Assembly (NCBI RefSeq): GCF_028768465.1
Contig: NZ_CP118225.1
Coordinates: forward strand, 186,001-250,000
DNA from: Rhodopirellula sp. P2
Lineage (GTDB): Bacteria; Planctomycetota; Planctomycetia; Pirellulales; Pirellulaceae
Length of the DNA: 64,000 bases
Direction: 5' to 3'
Part shown: positions 3,760 to 59,204 of the stretch, in pieces
Layout: every line of letters starts with the position of its first letter
Numbering within the stretch: position 1 is the first letter of the stretch
The notes under the pieces: generated by a model
What the model was told of the DNA's origin: nothing
The model's input: only the letters and a program-made list of their open reading frames with translations
Database searches by the model: none
Translations under genes and position numbers: made by a program

Positions 3760-3793
3760 CGTAAAATTCTCCTTCGGCATGGCCGAACTAAAG

Positions 3794-6700
3794 TTAGACC
3801 GATGCCGTTTCAGGCACGCGCCTGATTTTCGGGTCAATCGGTTCATCGGGTTCAAGACGATGACCGTCATCGTCTCCGTCGTCGTCATCTCCTGCATCAG
3901 CATCACTGCGCAGTTTTTCCACTGGCGTGTTGAACACGACGTAGAGCACTCGAAGCACGAGCAAACTCATCACCATCGCACTGCACACGCCGCCAATCAC
4001 CACCGTGGCCAGTGGTCGTTGCACTTCCGCTCCCATCCCGATGCTGAATGCCATCGGAACGAATCCAAGACTCGCCACCAGCGTCGTCATCAAGATTGGA
4101 CGCAATCGTGTCATCGCGGCCTCTTCGACCGCTTCGTCAAGCGAATGCCCTTTTCGCCGCAGTTGTCGAATCGTTGACACAAGCAGCATGTCATCGAGCA
4201 CCGCGACTCCGGACAATGCGATGAATCCAACCGCTGCCGAAATCGAAAACGGCATGTCGCGGATCCACAACGCCAGAATCCCGCCAATCCACGCGAATGG
4301 AACGCCTGTAAAAACTCGCAGCGAGTCAACCCAGTTGCGATACGTCATGTAAAGCAGCGAAAGAATCATCAGGAGTGCAATTGGCACCACGATCATCAGG
4401 CGGGTTTGAGCCCGCTGCAGATTCTCGAATTGCCCGCCCCATTCGATGCGGTAGCGTCCGGCAGGCAGTTGCACCTTTTCAGAAACCACACGTTGAGCTT
4501 CGGCAACGAAGCTGCCCAGGTCGCGACCACGGACATTCGATTCAATCGTAATGCGACGTTGGTACCAGTCTCGCTTGATCGTATTCCAACCTTCCACGGT
4601 TTCGATCGTGGCCAGCCGGGAAAGCGGAATACGTTCGCCAGATGGCGTGGCAACCAAGATTTGCTTGATGGCCTCTGGACTAGCGCGAGCTTCTTCGGGC
4701 AGTCGGATAATCAGTGGAAACCGCAACTGGCCTTCGTAGACTTCGCCAACGTTATGCGTACCCAAGGAGCGGACAAGATTCATCACCGTGCTGGCCGGTA
4801 CACCGTAGCGGGCGATCAGGTCTTGGTTGATGCGAATTTGCAAAACCGGCTGACCAGAAACCTGTTCGACCTTCACGTCTTCCGAACCAGGAATCGAGTT
4901 GAGTGCCCGCTCAATTTCTTCGGCTTTCTCTACCATCACATCCAAATCATCGCCATAAAGAATTGCGGCGACATCCGAGCGTACACCAGAGATCATTTCG
5001 TTCATTCGCATTTCAATCGGCTGCGACATGGCCAGTCGCGGACCGGGTAGATCACGCAGCTCTTCCTGCACCTTGACCACCAATTCATCCTGCGTCTCCG
5101 CTCGCGTCCATTTCTCACGTGGATGCAGTGTCAGAAACAAGTCGGTCAACTCCGTACCCATTGGGTCGGTCGCCACCTCCGCCGTTCCGATACGGCTCCA
5201 GACCTGTGCGACTTCGTCCGGGAATTTTTCCAGAATGACCTGTTCCATTTTTGTGTTGTAACGCATGGATTCTTCCAGCGTCGTCCCCGCCAGTCGCACC
5301 ACGTTGATCGTGATAGCACCTTCAGAAAGTCGTGGGACGAACTCGCTGCCGAGATTCGGAGCGACGAGGCCAAACACGGTGACGAGTAACAACAGGGCCG
5401 ATCCGATAATGAACGTCTTGTGGTGCATCGTGAACCGCAACACCGGTGCGTAGAGGCGTTTCAATAGACGAAGTAGTAGCGGCTCGGTTTCTTTGATGTT
5501 CTTGGGGAGGAACAGACTCGCCAACACGGGCATCAGTGTCAGCGAAAGAACCATCGACCCGGCAAGAGCCATAATCACTGTGATTGCCATCGGTCGAAAC
5601 AGTTTGCCTTCGATGCCTTCGAGCGTCAGGATCGGCAAGTAGACGATCATGATGATCAATTCGCCAAACATGGTCGGCTTGCGAACCTCAACCGCCGCAT
5701 CGCGAATGATCTGCAAGCGACTGCGACCGTCCGACTTGTGAGCCAAGCAACGAACACAGTTTTCGATCATCACGACTGAACTATCGACGACCAATCCGAA
5801 GTCGATGGCACCGAGGCTAAGCAAGCTCGCAGCGATGCCGAACTTCAACATCCCCGAGAAAGCGAACAGCATCGACAACGGAATTGCGAGCGCAACAATG
5901 ATTCCGGCTCGCAGATTCCCCAGGAAGATGAACAGAACCGCGACAACCAGCAAACCGCCCTCGAACAGATTCTTCTGAACCGTATGAATGACATGGTCAA
6001 TTAGCTCGGTACGGTCATAGACCGTTTGAATCTTGACGCCGGCAGGGAGCGATTGCTGAATGCCTGCGATCTTCTCTTTGATGGCCCAAGTGACGTCGTG
6101 GCTGTTTTCGCCCATCAACATGAAGCCCAACCCCAACACCGCTTCGCCGCGACCGTTTGCCGTGACCGCGCCCCGCCGAATCTCATGCCCGATCATCACA
6201 TCGGCGACGTCGCGAATGCGAACTGGCACGCCATCTTTGGAAGTGATGACAATGTCTTCAATCTCCTGAATGTTGACCGTTCGGCCAACACCATGCACCA
6301 GTAGCATCTCGCTGCCGTCAGTGACCGTTCCCCCGCCGACATTCTCGTTATTCGCTTCAATTGCGTCAGATACTTGCTCGAAGGTCAGGCCGTACTTGAA
6401 CAGCCCTTCGGGATCGAGACGAATCTGATATTGCTTCTCGTACCCGCCCCAACTGTTTACTTCGGCCACACCTCGAACCGATCGCAATTGTGGCTTGACC
6501 ACCCAGTCGTGAATCGTTCGCAACTCGGTCATGCGTTTAACACGCTCCGACTGAGAGGCTTCCGAAAAGTCAACACCGTCGTAAACCAGAACGTAGTGAA
6601 AGACTTCACCCAGACCCGTCGAAACTGGCCCCATCTGCGGCCGGCTGATGCCGTCGGGTAGCTCGACAGTGGACAACCGTTCGTTAATCAACTGACGAGC

Positions 6701-20677: not shown

Positions 20678-20696
20678 CGTGCGCCAATGCCTCGCT

Positions 20697-20942
20697 CGTT
20701 CCCAGGCTCCTGCCTGGGAACGCAATGCACCGCAGGCTCTGCCTGCTGTTTCGGGGGTGCAGGAGGCGGGAGCCTCCAAGACACTGTGTGCCCAGGCAGA
20801 GCCTGGGTACAAGACCGCGTCCCTCGTTCCCAGGCTCCCGCCTGGGAACGCGATGCACCGCAGGCTCTGCCTGCTGGTTCGGCGGTGTGGGAGGCGGGAG
20901 CCTCCAAGGCACTGTGTGCCCAGGCGGAGCCTGGGTACAAGG
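20697..20942. repeat. Array A: two copies of the 129-bp multi-hairpin repeat
   Basis: Units begin at 20697 and 20825. Each unit holds four successive hairpins: CCCAGGC/GCCTGGG, GCAGGCTCTGCCTGC, GGAGGCGGGAGCCTCC and CCCAGGCGGAGCCTGGG. The array ends 3 bp before the stop codon of the RAYT gene at 20946. The same unit recurs in array B on the other side of that gene and in scattered fragments. Long reading frames across the array are a by-product of its GC-rich periodic structure. Confidence 0.93.
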
Positions 20943-20945
20943 TTG

Positions 20946-21482
20946 TTACATCCAGTCCGTGCAAACATCGATGAGGCAAGGTTGGCGAGCGTAGGCTCTT
21001 GCACTGGAGAAACGCCAGTGCAGCGGATCGTCGACGTATCCACGACGCAACGGATTGTGATGCATGTACTCAATCTTTTGCCACATCACTTCGTCCGACT
21101 CCATCACTTGCGAATGACTGCCTTCCTGCCATAGCTGGTGCCTTTGGTCGACCTTGTGACGCAGCTTGAAATACTCGAACTCCTGAAGCAAGGTTTCATA
21201 GCCCATCTGTTCCATCTTGTTGAAGATGCTCGTCGCCGTGAATGACTTGAACTCACCGACGCGTTTGCCAATCTGCGGCCCCACCGCGATCCAGTGCAAA
21301 TGATTTTCCATGACAACGAATCCGAGGATTTGAATGTCACGTTCGCTTTGAAGAAAACGCCAACTACTGAAAATAACGTCGGTGAACGCCGGGTAAGAAA
21401 AGACAGGCAACCAAGCCACGATCGTGTCAGTCATGAAGTACGGCCGATAGTCTTCCCCGAACTTATATCGAGAACGAGACAT
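20946..21482 (-). CDS. REP-associated tyrosine transposase (RAYT), IS200-like Y1 family
   Basis: This 178-residue protein starts at ATG 21482 (MSRSRYKFGEDYRPYF). It carries the HUH-type metal site in MENHLHWIA and the family signature YMHHNPLRRGYVDDP near the C-terminus. RAYT proteins cleave single-stranded REP hairpins and are thought to spread them. The gene is bracketed by arrays A and B of the 129-bp hairpin repeat, so gene and repeats probably form one functional unit. There are no IS ends in the usual sense. Confidence 0.9.
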   Translation of the reverse strand: MSRSRYKFGEDYRPYFMTDTIVAWLPVFSYPAFTDVIFSSWRFLQSERDIQILGFVVMENHLHWIAVGPQIGKRVGEFKSFTATSIFNKMEQMGYETLLQEFEYFKLRHKVDQRHQLWQEGSHSQVMESDEVMWQKIEYMHHNPLRRGYVDDPLHWRFSSARAYARQPCLIDVCTDWM

Positions 21483-21542
21483 GATTGCTTTCCTGGACGA
21501 AAGGATTGACACCTTTCGTCAGCCTAACATTTCCTCACGACT

Positions 21543-22180
21543 CGTCCCCAGGCTCCCGCCTGGGAACGCGATGCACGGCAGGCTCTGCCTGCTGGTTTTG
21601 GCGGTGTGGGAGGCGGGAGCCTCCAAGACACTGTGTGCCCAGGCAGAGCCTGGGTACAAGATGGCGTTCCTCGTTCCCAGGCTCCTGCCTGGGAACGCGA
21701 TGCACGGCAGGCTCTGCCTGCTGGCTTCGGCGGTGTGGGAGGCGGGAGCCTCCAAGACACTGTGTGCCCAGGCGGAGCCTGGGTACAAGATGGCGTTCCT
21801 CGTCCCCAGGCTCCCGCCTGGGAACGCGATGCACCGCAGGCTCTGCCTGCTGGCTTCGGCGGTGCGGGAGGCGGGAGCCTCCAAGACACTGTGTGCCCAG
21901 GCGGAGCCTGGGTACAAGACCGCGTCCCTCGCTCCCAGGCTCCCGCCTGGGAACGCGATGCACGGCAGGCTCTGCCTGCTGGTTTCGGGGGTGTGGGAGG
22001 CAGGAGCCTCCAAGACACTGTGTGCCCAGGCAGAGCCTGGGTACAAGATGGCGTTCCTCGTTCCCAGGCTCCCGCCTGGGAACGCGATGCACCGCCGGCT
22101 CTGCCTGCTGGCTTCGGCGGTGCGGGAGGCGGGAGCCTCCAAGACACTGTGTGCCCAGGCAGAGCCTGGGGACAAGATGG
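21543..22180. repeat. Array B: five copies of the 129-bp multi-hairpin repeat
   Basis: Units begin at 21543, 21672, 21801, 21930 and 22059, a constant 129-bp period. Copies differ by scattered substitutions that mostly keep the hairpins paired (for example CTCCCGCC versus CTCCTGCC in loops). The array starts 60 bp upstream of the RAYT start codon. The last unit is slightly degraded at its end. There are no unique spacers, so this is not a CRISPR array. Confidence 0.95.
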
Positions 22181-22271
22181 CGATGGCGTCGTCGTCAACT
22201 CCGATCATTCGGGGCAGCCCTCTTTGAACGGTCGTCCCATCGCATCAAAAGGGGTCTGGGCCACGAAAGAG

Positions 22272-56101: not shown

Positions 56102-56147
56102 GACACGCGTGGCATCGATCCGTGAACAGCATCGAGGAATTGGCCTG

Positions 56148-57731
56148 ATGAAAACCGACGACAGCCCTGGGCTGCTTCACGAACGACAACTTGACGCCAG
56201 CCCACCGGGTAGCGATCGCCACCTTGTCGTCGTCGGTGGCGGGACAGCGGGCTGGATGAGTGCAGCGACGCTGAAACGACGACTCAAGTGCCGCGTCACG
56301 GTTGTTGAATCGGCTCGTGTCCCGCCGATCGGGGTGGGCGAAGCGACGATCCCTGCCATCGTGGATTGGATCGAGAACATGGGCATCGACGAGGATGATT
56401 TCATCCGGCGGACCGGTGCGACTTACAAACTGGCGATTCGGTTCGACCACTGGGTCACCCCTCAACACCGTTACTGGCACCCGTTTGGGATTTGTGGCAG
56501 CCCGATTGATGGTGTGGACCTGATTCACACTTGGCAGCGGGGAGTTCACCAGGGTTGGTTGCCCGCCGACTCCAAGTACACCGACTACAGCTTCCAACGC
56601 GAACTGTGCGAACTGGGCCGAGGTCCACGTGCGCCCGGCCAACCGAGTCTCGCGCACAACTACGCGTTTCATCTCGACGCGGGAAAGCTGGCTGCCTTCC
56701 TGCAAGAGGTCGCCGTGAGCGAAGGCGTCCAGCATGTTGTCGCGGACGTGCGCGGTGCCATCCGCGATGAGCGAGGCAACATTCAATCTCTTTCACTGGA
56801 CGGGCAAACCGCAGTGGCAGGGGATCTGTTCATCGACTGCAGCGGATTTGCGAGCGTGCTGATTGAACAAGAGATGCAATCGGAATGGATTGACTGGTCC
56901 GAGCAATTGATCTGCGATCGCGCCGTCACGCTGCGTCGGTCTCGCAACGAACCAGGCAACGACGCCCAACCCGCAATCGAACTGCCACCGTTCACGATCA
57001 GCACCGGGATGAACGCCGGTTGGTCCTGGCAGATCCCTCTGCATGAGAACACGGGTTGTGGCTACGTGTTTTCGTCGGCTCACATCAGCGACGAAGACGC
57101 CCGAGACGAACTGATCGACTTGGTCGGTGGCGACGCGGAAACGGCGGAGACCAGAACCGTCCCGATGCGAGTGGGCATGCGACCGACATCGTGGGTCGGC
57201 AACTGCGTCTCGATCGGATTGTCCGCTGGGTTTGTCGAACCGCTGGAGTCCACCGGGATCTTCTTGGTCCAACGTGCCCTGGACGAACTTGTGGACTGTT
57301 TGCCTGCGGCGGTCTCCACGTGCGTCTTTGACAAAAGGTCCTGCGACACCCAAGCCTTCCATGCACGGATGACGGAGGTCTACGCCCAGGTGCGTGACTT
57401 TGTGCTGATGCACTATGTCGTTTCGCAGCGCCGCGACACTGCGTTTTGGACGGACGCTGCGACGGTCGCCTTGCCAGACTCGCTCGCGATGTTGCTGGAT
57501 GAATACACCAGCACGGGCCGGGTCCGGTTGCCGCAGCGGGACCCCACGTTCCTGGACGTGAACCACCACTGCATTCTCAGTCCAGCAGGCGTTCAGCCTG
57601 GACCTTTGCCAGGCTCGCGAGCCCCTCAACCAGGGACCATCGATTTCCTGGAACACATTCGATCGACCCACGCTCAGATTGCCCGGCGACTTCCCACGCA
57701 CGCATTGCTCATCGATGCGATCCATCCGTAG
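56148..57731 (+). CDS. FAD-dependent tryptophan-halogenase-like protein
   Basis: This protein of about 527 residues has the FAD-binding motif GGGTAGW at residues 30-36 and IGVGEATIPAIVDWIENMGI. Lys94 in TYKLAI corresponds to the halogenase catalytic lysine; WSWQIPL and GFVEPLESTGIFLVQ are typical of the family. It may chlorinate or brominate an aromatic compound, or act as a related flavin enzyme. ATG 56148 follows GGAAT. The C-terminus (about 490-527) lies in a region duplicated downstream, and the TAG stop at 57729 is inside the first REP hairpin. Confidence 0.88.
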   Translation: MKTDDSPGLLHERQLDASPPGSDRHLVVVGGGTAGWMSAATLKRRLKCRVTVVESARVPPIGVGEATIPAIVDWIENMGIDEDDFIRRTGATYKLAIRFDHWVTPQHRYWHPFGICGSPIDGVDLIHTWQRGVHQGWLPADSKYTDYSFQRELCELGRGPRAPGQPSLAHNYAFHLDAGKLAAFLQEVAVSEGVQHVVADVRGAIRDERGNIQSLSLDGQTAVAGDLFIDCSGFASVLIEQEMQSEWIDWSEQLICDRAVTLRRSRNEPGNDAQPAIELPPFTISTGMNAGWSWQIPLHENTGCGYVFSSAHISDEDARDELIDLVGGDAETAETRTVPMRVGMRPTSWVGNCVSIGLSAGFVEPLESTGIFLVQRALDELVDCLPAAVSTCVFDKRSCDTQAFHARMTEVYAQVRDFVLMHYVVSQRRDTAFWTDAATVALPDSLAMLLDEYTSTGRVRLPQRDPTFLDVNHHCILSPAGVQPGPLPGSRAPQPGTIDFLEHIRSTHAQIARRLPTHALLIDAIHP

Positions 57732-57793
57732 CGAAACTCGTCAAGAGTTTCGATGATTCTGGGGGAGACGAAACACTTGACGTGTTTCGCTAC
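57728..57793. repeat. REP/BIME unit of two hairpins overlapping the halogenase stop
   Basis: The 66-bp unit reads GTAGCGAAACTCGTCAAGAG-TTTCG, a short GA-rich spacer with GGGGGA, then CGAAACACTTGACGTGTTTC-GCTAC. Each half is a hairpin (CGAAACTC/GAGTTTCG and CGAAACAC/GTGTTTCG) and the ends GTAGCGAAAC/GTTTCGCTAC pair too. It is the layout of a paired REP element as used by RAYT proteins. Confidence 0.92.
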
Positions 57794-58443
57794 AATCGCT
57801 TCTCGGACGCTGCGACGGTCGCGTCCAGGCTCGCGAGCGTCTCAATCAGGGACAGTCGATTTTCTGGAACGCATTCGATCGACCCACGCTCAGATTGCCC
57901 GGCGACTTCCCACGCACGCGTTGCTCATCGATGCGATCCACCAGCGTAGCGAAACTCGTCAAGAGTTTCGATGATCCGGGGGAGACGAAACACTTGACGT
58001 GTTTCGCTACAATCGCTTCTCGGACGCTGCGACGGTCGCGTCCAGGCTCGCGAGCGTCTCAATCAGGGACAGTCGATTTTCTGGAACGCATTCGATCGAC
58101 CCACGCTCAGATTGCCCGGCGACTTCCCACGCACGCGTTGCTCATCGATGCGATCCACCAGCGTAGCGAAACTCGTCAAGAGTTTCGATGATCCGGGGGA
58201 GACGAAACACTTGACGTGTTTCGCTACAATCGCTTCTCGGACGCTGCGACGGTCGCGTCCAGGCTCGCGAGCGTCTCAATCAGGGACAGTCGATTTTCTG
58301 GAACGCATTCGATCGACCCACGCTCAGATTGCCCGGCGACTTCCCACGCACGCGTTGCTCATCGATGCGATCCACCAGCGTAGCGAAACTCGTCAAGAGT
58401 TTCGATGATCCGGGGGAGACGAAACACTTGACGTGTTTCGCGA
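57794..58443. repeat. Three 217-bp tandem copies: halogenase 3' end plus REP unit
   Basis: Copies start at 57794, 58011 and 58228 and are nearly identical. Each contains GGACGCTGCGACGGTCGC (matching the gene interior near 57460) joined to a copy of the gene's last ~120 bp (from CCAGGCTCGCGAGC, matching 57608 onward), then a REP unit. So each copy is a shortened version of the 3' end of the halogenase gene with an internal deletion. The copies read as HALLIDAIHQRSETRQEFR at the end, because two extra bases shift past the TAG. They are not separate genes. Confidence 0.93.
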
Positions 58444-58456
58444 CGTGCATCAGTTG

Positions 58457-58483
58457 TCGAAACTCTTGACGAGTTTCGCTACG
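58457..58483. repeat. REP hairpin just upstream of the second RAYT gene
   Basis: GTCGAAACTCTTGACGAGTT followed by TCGCTAC forms the same hairpin as in the array, 8 bp before the RAYT start codon. Confidence 0.85.
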
Positions 58484-58491
58484 ATAGTGGG

Positions 58492-59076
58492 ATGACTGTC
58501 GAGCATCCGCAACGGCTAAAACGATTGCCGGCCGAGTATTACCGGGGCGAAGCATGGGTGCATTGGGTGTGCACGATTGACGGTCGTCGCACCGGTTGGC
58601 TCGACGCTCGATTTCTCTACAAGATGAGAGAATTGCTGACCCACGCCGCCTTTCGCTATCAGATCGCTTGTCCGATCTATTGTTTGATGCCCGACCACAT
58701 CCACTTTCTGTGGGCAGGGCTCGCCGATGACTCGGATCAGTTGCCCGCCATGAAAGCGTTTCGCTTGAATTCAAACGACTGCTTGAAACGAGTCGGGCAT
58801 CAATTCCAATTGCAACCGTATGATCATGTTCTGAAGGACCATGAACTAGATCGCGGTGCGATTGAATCCACCATGGAATACATCGCCAGAAATCCCGAAC
58901 GGAAAGGCTTGGTCAAGACAGATCATTTCCAGACCTACCCGTACACCGGATGCCTATTGCCTGGCGCACCACGCATTCGGCTGTTTGGTGAAGCGGGCTG
59001 GGACGAAGTCTGGCAAACGCTTTCTTTTTTGAAAAGAACGGCCTGCTTCCGTCGCCCTGATCCAAAATACTTGTAA
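58492..59076 (+). CDS. REP-associated tyrosine transposase (RAYT), second type
   Basis: This 194-residue protein starts at ATG 58492. Its HUH-type site is MPDHIHFLWAG and the family signature is YIARNPERKGLV. It is quite different from the RAYT at 20946 (long N-terminal WVHWVCTIDGRRTGW segment). It is bracketed by its own hairpin type (GTAGCGAAAC...) on both sides. It probably nicks or mobilises these hairpins and may be tied to the 217-bp amplification next to it. Confidence 0.88.
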   Translation: MTVEHPQRLKRLPAEYYRGEAWVHWVCTIDGRRTGWLDARFLYKMRELLTHAAFRYQIACPIYCLMPDHIHFLWAGLADDSDQLPAMKAFRLNSNDCLKRVGHQFQLQPYDHVLKDHELDRGAIESTMEYIARNPERKGLVKTDHFQTYPYTGCLLPGAPRIRLFGEAGWDEVWQTLSFLKRTACFRRPDPKYL

Positions 59077-59093
59077 CGAAAGCTCGTCGACTC

Positions 59094-59204
59094 GTAGCGA
59101 AACTTGTCAAGAGTTTCGATGATTCGGGGGAGGCAGTGGACGAAACTCTTGACGAGTTTCGCGACGGGAATGAGTTTCGCGACGGGAATGAGTTTCGCGA
59201 CGAT
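59094..59204. repeat. REP unit and short tandem repeats downstream of the RAYT gene
   Basis: A REP pair begins GTAGCGAAACTTGTCAAGAG and continues to CGAAACTCTTGACGAGTTTC. It is followed by three degenerate copies of GAGTTTCGCGACGGGAAT. It mirrors the hairpins upstream of the RAYT gene and runs to the end of the minus-strand outer-membrane gene. Confidence 0.85.

Follow-up and report, generated by a model that had tools for sequence, protein, structure and literature searches.

Tandem copies of a halogenase gene end together with REP hairpins beside a RAYT gene in Rhodopirellula sp. P2

Results and Discussion

A halogenase gene end is repeated between REP pairs

The window analyzed here, a stretch of 64,000 nt, is part of the single 7.29-Mb contig of Rhodopirellula sp. 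P2 (genome G000). It carries a gene for a flavin-dependent tryptophan halogenase, for which an alternative GTG start at 56109 is possible, and further downstream a gene for a RAYT (Table 1). The interval from the halogenase to the RAYT holds four REP pairs, three captured halogenase ends between them and one further iREP. The TAG stop of the halogenase gene is supplied by the GTAG of the first REP pair, and the array begins at this stop (57728).

Table 1. Features of the halogenase/RAYT locus (positions in the window)
Feature	Position	Strand	Basis or remarks
Flavin-dependent tryptophan halogenase gene, 528 aa	56145..57731	+	PF04820 E=3.3e-132, ORF list
Gene-proximal inverted REP pair	57728..57793	.	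REP 57728-57752 +, iREP 57769-57793 -
Captured, internally deleted halogenase 3' end, copy 1	57804..57944	+	repeat comparison
REP pair, unit 2	57946..58010	.	
Captured halogenase 3' end, copy 2	58021..58161	+	
REP pair, unit 3	58163..58227	.	
Captured halogenase 3' end, copy 3	58238..58378	+	
Last REP pair of the 217-bp array	58380..58441	.	periodicity ends where the iREP stem ends
RAYT-proximal iREP	58458..58482	-	position matches that of the final iREP ahead of the RAYT in sister genome G009
RAYT (TnpA-REP) gene, 194 aa	58492..59076	+	HUH motif H69-I-H71, Y130---N134-P135
REP pair downstream of the RAYT	59094..59165	.	REPs 59094-59118, 59141-59165
18-bp tandem repeats from iREP ends (GAGTTTCGCGACGGGAAT), 2.7 copies	59154..59202	+	TRF

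Comparison of overlapping 253-nt segments at 57758 (reference), 57975 and 58192 showed 100%, 100% and 99% identity at a spacing of 217 bp, and TRF reported a tandem repeat at 57609-58441 with a period of 217, 3.8 copies and a score of 1573. Both results confirm the three near-identical 217-bp units beside the RAYT gene that a first-pass annotation of this DNA had described. Each unit consists of halogenase nucleotides 57451-57469 (19 nt, 100% identity) fused to 57609-57724 (116 nt, 93%) and followed by a REP pair. The 139 nt of the gene between 57469 and 57609 is missing from every unit, and a direct repeat, TTGCCAG, lies in the halogenase gene at 57471 and 57606, near both ends of the missing part. 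The annotation was right about the deleted halogenase 3' end, whereas the single REP that it had placed in each unit is an inverted REP pair. It had also seen the RAYT gene as bracketed by the same hairpins, and this holds, with the iREP on one side and the REP pair on the other (Table 1); these GTAG hairpins recur across the genome. A coding function of the array was considered and rejected: since 217 cannot be divided by 3 and the array is not spanned by any listed ORF of at least 60 aa, the repeated ORFs within it are taken as spurious.

The REP family and the RAYT protein

A REP of this family is built of GTAG, an 8-bp stem and a 5-nt loop, and a REP pair folds as a single long hairpin (DNA fold -23.6 kcal/mol, z -8.6). 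With up to 3 mismatches allowed, the REP core occurs 165 times in the genome as compared to 0 occurrences of a reversed-pattern control, which shows that the repetition is not due to chance. Stem variants carry compensatory changes, and an inverted neighbour lies 25-100 bp away at 45 of 100 REPs (100 of the 165 positions were listed). Having a GTAG foot, a palindrome, many copies and inverted pairs, the family belongs with the REP/REPIN (BIME) elements, and the units of a REP pair plus flank, arranged head-to-tail, form an ordered REPIN cluster. When 43 dispersed REP units of the genome were inspected by eye, several showed a sequence like AACTCAATTTTCGG directly before the GTAG, possibly a target-site preference or an extended end.

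In an alignment of 20 sequences both histidines of H69-I-H71 are invariant, as are N134 and P135, and Y130 is conserved in at least 90%. The distance from HUH to Y is 59 aa; the reported median is 58-67 in most subclasses, and Y---NP with HUH is described as the signature of class-2 TnpA-REP (PMC6006769). The predicted fold (AlphaFold2, mean pLDDT 91.3) has as its top PDB match 4er8, the E. coli RAYT in complex with a REP hairpin (E=9e-8). The E. coli TnpA-REP is likewise an HUH-Tyr enzyme with cognate GTAG hairpins (PMC8266576), although the identity of the two sequences in the structural alignment is 16%. No match to the protein was found in Pfam at 0.001, in PHROGs or by PDB sequence search. 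NF047646 matches at E=6.4e-10 with 39.1 bits, below its 80-bit cut-off, and PF01797 weakly, with 19 bits against a cut-off of 23; these cut-offs are thresholds of the libraries and not a biological trait. Judging from motifs and predicted structure, we read the protein as a divergent but proper RAYT that would fall into class 2 TnpA-Y1. The genome has three RAYTs of the same clade plus further, more distant relatives. One of the three, RAYT2, shows 99% identity to the corresponding RAYT of another species, G004.

The halogenase locus in related genomes

Sixty genomes, including 12 other genomes of the genus, were searched with a halogenase cut-off of E<=1e-80. Six of the 12 gave a match, one each, and all six loci were read. 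In the sister species (G009) the order is halogenase (85% aa identity), REP pair, one 222-bp unit, REP pair and RAYT (98% aa). The 222-bp unit has the same internal deletion as the units of P2 and a similar short filler at the junction, which could be traced to neither species' halogenase gene. Because deletion and junction filler are common to the units of both genomes, the duplication of the halogenase end is most likely older than the split of G000 and G009. The amplification, in turn, appears recent, as the first-pass annotation had proposed: the copies are near-identical, and there are 3 extra units in G000 versus 1 in the sister. Copy numbers also differ in two other arrays, 5 in G000 versus 2 in G009 for a 148-bp array and 9 versus 2 for a 79-bp array, where the G009 numbers may be too low because this genome is a draft.

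In G011 there are REPs at and after the halogenase stop, with no RAYT and no duplication there, and the halogenase loci of G008, G002, G012 and G010 hold no REP, no RAYT and no copy. The genus provides a natural series, from a halogenase gene without REP, over REPs without RAYT, to REPs and RAYT with one or three captured ends. With this series and the REP-rich genomes without RAYT, a possible role of the RAYT in local duplication becomes directly testable. An array unit of G011 takes in what is presumably the start of selO. In G009, another RAYT is flanked on either side by identical types of 119-bp unit (L088:2741-3167 and 3789-4173).

Concerted evolution of the gene end and its copies

In the captured segment, 18 sites are shared within species by gene and copy in the comparison of G000 and G009, as opposed to 1 site that follows the paralogs; another 20 columns vary in other patterns, and a few of these lie at the ragged alignment end. 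This pattern indicates that the halogenase end and the array evolve in concert, exchanging sequence. Here the coding end of a gene takes part in concerted evolution with the repeat array next to it. For the 148-bp array, no clear species-wise exchange pattern was seen between G000 and G009. One could go further and regard REP/RAYT loci as local engines that turn neighbouring gene ends into arrays, which then act as conversion donors and rewrite the C-terminus of the gene. We consider this extension doubtful; if true, the RAYT would shape host protein ends via REP arrays, beyond merely spreading REPs.

The RAYT gene itself differs from its surroundings. Of the four-fold sites compared between G000 and G009, 6/85 differ in the RAYT; the corresponding figures are 64/237 for the halogenase, 64/191 for the gene downstream and 16/83 for the upstream side (Fisher 5.6e-5, 9.6e-7 and 0.022, respectively), and at window positions 58501-59100 the RAYT is ~3 to 5 times less diverged at such sites than the flanking genes. 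This low divergence relative to the neighbouring genes suggests that the RAYT cassette may recently have been exchanged or converted.

Gene ends in other arrays of the genome

A further 54 stretches of G000 around REP hits and RAYTs were fetched, 35 of them at first and 19 later. REP-bearing arrays with units of at least 30 bp in the first 35 stretches had units of 33, 33, 35, 43, 43, 79, 97, 147, 148, 271, 324 and 349 bp, and the later 19 added REP-bearing arrays of 38 and 191 bp. Fetched stretches and window together hold seven REP arrays with units longer than 100 bp, further sites being possible beyond the listed hits, and in four of the seven the end of a neighbouring gene lies inside the array. 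Besides the halogenase array, these are a 148-bp array (x5, with five distinguishable copies) that contains the end of a 240-aa ORF conserved in G009 and with no Pfam match, a 147-bp array (x4) with the end of an RlmA-like methyltransferase (Pfam) beside RAYT3, which involves another REP family, and a 324-bp array (x1.9) with the end of a class-IV aminotransferase (Pfam) beside RAYT2. No gene end was recognised in the 191-, 271- and 349-bp units. Each of the three same-clade RAYTs of the genome has one gene-end array. The first-pass annotation had suggested a search for other loci at which REPs are accompanied by host DNA from their flanks, and the fetched stretches contain such loci.

Several further arrays were observed. 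In the window at 20695-22182, a Y1 transposase gene (20946-21512, minus strand; NF047646 84 bits, above cut-off) has a tandem array on either side (128 bp x1.9 and 129 bp x5.0), and these arrays contain a different palindrome (GTTCCCAGGCTCCCGCCTGGGAAC); the architecture is as at the halogenase/RAYT locus, with a different repeat family. A drifting 7-bp repeat (GGCGTTC, GGGAGTT, GGGCGATT) occurs in ~37 copies just upstream of RAYT2 (L053:1930-2202; G000 2099929-2100201), and clustered short arrays with 33-38 bp units contain the RAYT3-type REP (GTAGCCGGATTCGCC...) at L215:801-4478 (G000 5257301-5260977). As a background sample we used twenty hand-spaced 20-kb stretches of G000, 400 kb that contain none of the 100 listed REP positions, and these held five arrays of period at least 50. 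One of the stretches has a 175-bp array of what seems to be another GTAG palindrome family (GTAGGCCGGAT...ATCCGGCCTAC; L122:13122-13568).

Tandem arrays are associated with RAYT genes

RAYT loci were collected from public genomes, and the best 80 of 122 found were analyzed. A tandem array of period at least 50 lies within 1 kb at 23 of these 80 loci, and arrays were ~25 times denser near the RAYT (29 in 142.7 kb) than farther out (3 in 365.3 kb). In a Pirellulaceae MAG, ~34 copies of a 91-bp unit are located directly beside a RAYT (L132:4689-7801). A crude ORF test, in which simple ORF calling picks wrong frames, found gene ends in few RAYT-side arrays elsewhere; since this test missed both Pfam-supported gene ends of G000, we claim no general frequency of capture.

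Within the genus, a REP was counted as directly repeated when a same-strand copy lies 25-600 bp away, and a gene as RAYT1-type when it is at least 67% identical to RAYT1 (that of G011 is 68% to RAYT1 and 62% to RAYT2). The RAYT1-type genomes counted were G000 (the first 100 of 165 listed), G009 (96 units) and G011 (62 units); the seven listed genomes without such a gene were G010 (65 units), G001 (41), G004 (27), G003 (14), G006 (12), G007 (9) and G008 (6), while G012 (RAYT1-type, 163 hits), G002 and G005 (few hits) stand outside the count. Directly repeated units made up 113 of 258 in the former and 8 of 174 in the latter (Fisher 1e-21), and sites with direct repetition 33 of 125 versus 4 of 148 (Fisher 5e-9); both Fisher values assume independence of REP units and sites, which does not hold. 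Taken by themselves, G010 and G001 had direct repetition at 4 of 106 units and 2 of 94 sites, and among near-perfect REPs (at most 1 mismatch) 54 of 125 were directly repeated versus 0 of 24, the latter from G010 and G001 only. G003, G004 and G007 carry RAYT2- or RAYT3-type genes, yet the REP of the window is directly repeated there in just 2 of 14, 2 of 27 and 0 of 9 units, and the genomes were divided by RAYT1 type once this result was known. Distant Y1 proteins are present in all 13 genomes of the genus.

The tie between the array and RAYTs that the annotation had proposed is thereby upheld as an association, in that tandem arrays concentrate at RAYT loci and direct REP repetition is commoner in RAYT1-type genomes. 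The same copying in RAYT-less relatives, which the annotation had named as evidence to the contrary, does not occur at a similar rate without a RAYT1-type gene (4/148 versus 33/125 sites), a comparison confounded by REP age: in the genomes without the gene, mostly drafts, REPs are fewer or more decayed and older.

Host DNA appears to be multiplied in place

Searches of the whole genome with the 217-bp and 148-bp units gave 68 and 61 matches, and 40 of 89 and 40 of 78 candidate stretches, respectively, were scored. Among the scored stretches no captured coding DNA was found away from its own array; essentially the REP pair alone matches, and the longest overrun into the coding side was ~10 nt (148-bp unit). 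REP-plus-host segments at unlinked sites, the mark of a mobile composite element, were lacking for the two arrays tested. Transposition of host DNA was therefore rejected for both units, and a mobile form of the capture suggested by the annotation is not supported: within the scored stretches the halogenase part and the coding part of the 148-bp array matched at their own loci alone, which argues for local tandem duplication and not transposition. Host DNA has been multiplied in place, with no sign of mobilisation.

How the arrays may have formed

At the initial joins 0-5 nt of sequence is shared, as judged by eye: ~2 nt for the 148-bp array, TGCAG for the RlmA array, TTGAG for one of the G011 arrays and no overlap for the aminotransferase array. 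In several cases the join is 3-11 nt away from the GTAG/CTAC of the outer REP, on its outer side, and one G011 join departs from this (by eye). No consistent C|T cleavage pattern was apparent at the joins when this small sample was viewed by eye. With such short overlaps and no visible C|T pattern, the transposase-driven copying put forward in the first-pass annotation is unproven. The near-identical block of the halogenase array, as delimited by an automatic edge finder, runs from the spacer of a REP pair to an iREP stem, as unequal exchange between REP pairs in direct repetition would predict; edges were clear in the 217-, 148- and 324-bp arrays, and the remaining arrays are too diverged for the finder.

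The explanation that we hold to be probable is an illegitimate tandem duplication at REP hairpins, likely aided by RAYT nicking and followed by unequal exchange and conversion, all in place and not by mobilisation. Before the species split, such a duplication would have taken up the halogenase 3' end along with the stop-forming REP pair, joining the interior of the gene to a point just outside the pair, and ~139 bp would have been lost between the direct repeats; junction and deletion are common to both species. Unequal exchange or slippage would later have altered the number of units, to the 3 extra in G000 and 1 in the sister, and gene end and copies may have swapped sequence by conversion, to which the site pattern points. 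Going by the association with RAYT genes, RAYT nicking of single-stranded REP hairpins would most likely raise the rate of the initial duplication, here and likewise at other RAYT/REP sites. A nick as the source of the first break would fit the biochemistry of other TnpA-REPs, as the E. coli enzyme cuts at C|T beside the REP and sometimes at discrete distant sites (PMC8266576).

Possibly, although we judge it the less likely course, slippage or unequal crossing-over at the hairpins is entirely passive, with palindromes that stall or mis-prime replication and RAYTs that merely sit at fresh, dense REPs. The 0-5 nt overlaps and the array boundaries inside REP pairs are in line with this, and so is the observation that an E. 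coli mutation-accumulation line lost five out of six tandem REPINs (PMC8049555). Other palindrome families of G000 form arrays too (window 21541-22182; L118, L122), and in G003, G004 and G007, which have related RAYTs, the REP of the window is little repeated. A passive process is harder to reconcile with the clustering of arrays at RAYT genes and with the rarity of direct repetition among the seven listed genomes that lack a RAYT1-type gene; two of these genomes contain 65 and 41 REPs. In the opposite extreme the RAYT itself would capture the segment, by cutting at the REP and at a distant site in the halogenase gene and re-inserting the piece as a composite single-strand element. Cleavage of discrete distant sites by the E. 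coli enzyme (PMC8266576) and the breakpoints that several arrays have within a few nt of GTAG/CTAC, on the outer side as seen by eye, would suit such a capture, but the copies are adjacent and head to tail, the joins are without a visible C|T pattern and the scored stretches of the two genome-wide searches had no captured coding DNA off the arrays, which makes it very unlikely.

Two further explanations appear highly improbable. The repeated segment could be the remnant of a second halogenase, a tandem paralog that decayed to its 3' end before the remnant was amplified, and the interior 19-nt piece that the copies hold besides the gene end would agree with this origin; against it, each of six relatives has one match at E<=1e-80, and the copy tracks the gene of its own species. 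A false expansion or collapse in the assembly, which the annotation had named as a possible source and which might be suspected as the comparison genomes are mostly drafts, is equally hard to uphold. Junction and deletion recur in the assembly of the sister species, which means that the duplication itself is no assembly artefact (copy number is to be read per assembly), and the 148-bp array has five distinguishable copies.

Relation to known REP clusters

In Pseudomonas fluorescens SBW25, 16 ordered REPIN clusters of tandem, near-identical inverted REP pairs including their flanks have been described, one cluster beside each of three RAYTs, and the authors inferred a second, cluster-forming mechanism separate from REPIN dispersal, the formation of clusters being left open in 2011 (Bertels and Rainey 2011, PMC3116915). 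These clusters resemble the G000 arrays in having tandem inverted REP pairs with flank, some beside RAYTs, whereas the portion of that account available to us reports no coding flank, no array in a sister species and no concerted evolution with an adjacent gene. A survey of GTAG-tagged REP families described tandem groups with flanking DNA, noted that GTAG often gives a TAG stop and listed R. baltica among the species with several such families (PMC3733652, 2013); gene-end content, its recurrence and RAYT enrichment are not reported in the available part of that survey. Local gain and loss of REPINs has also been described (PMC8049555). Tandem REP clusters with flanking DNA are thus already known (2011, 2013), and the new part of our finding is the recurrent capture of gene ends with concerted evolution, which we call new because no such report was found in searches of the open-licence PMC literature. 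In Salmonella, REPs were reportedly located at the join points of large chromosomal tandem duplications (Shyamala et al. 1990). Those duplications are large, whereas the units of G000 are ~0.2 kb and common to two species.
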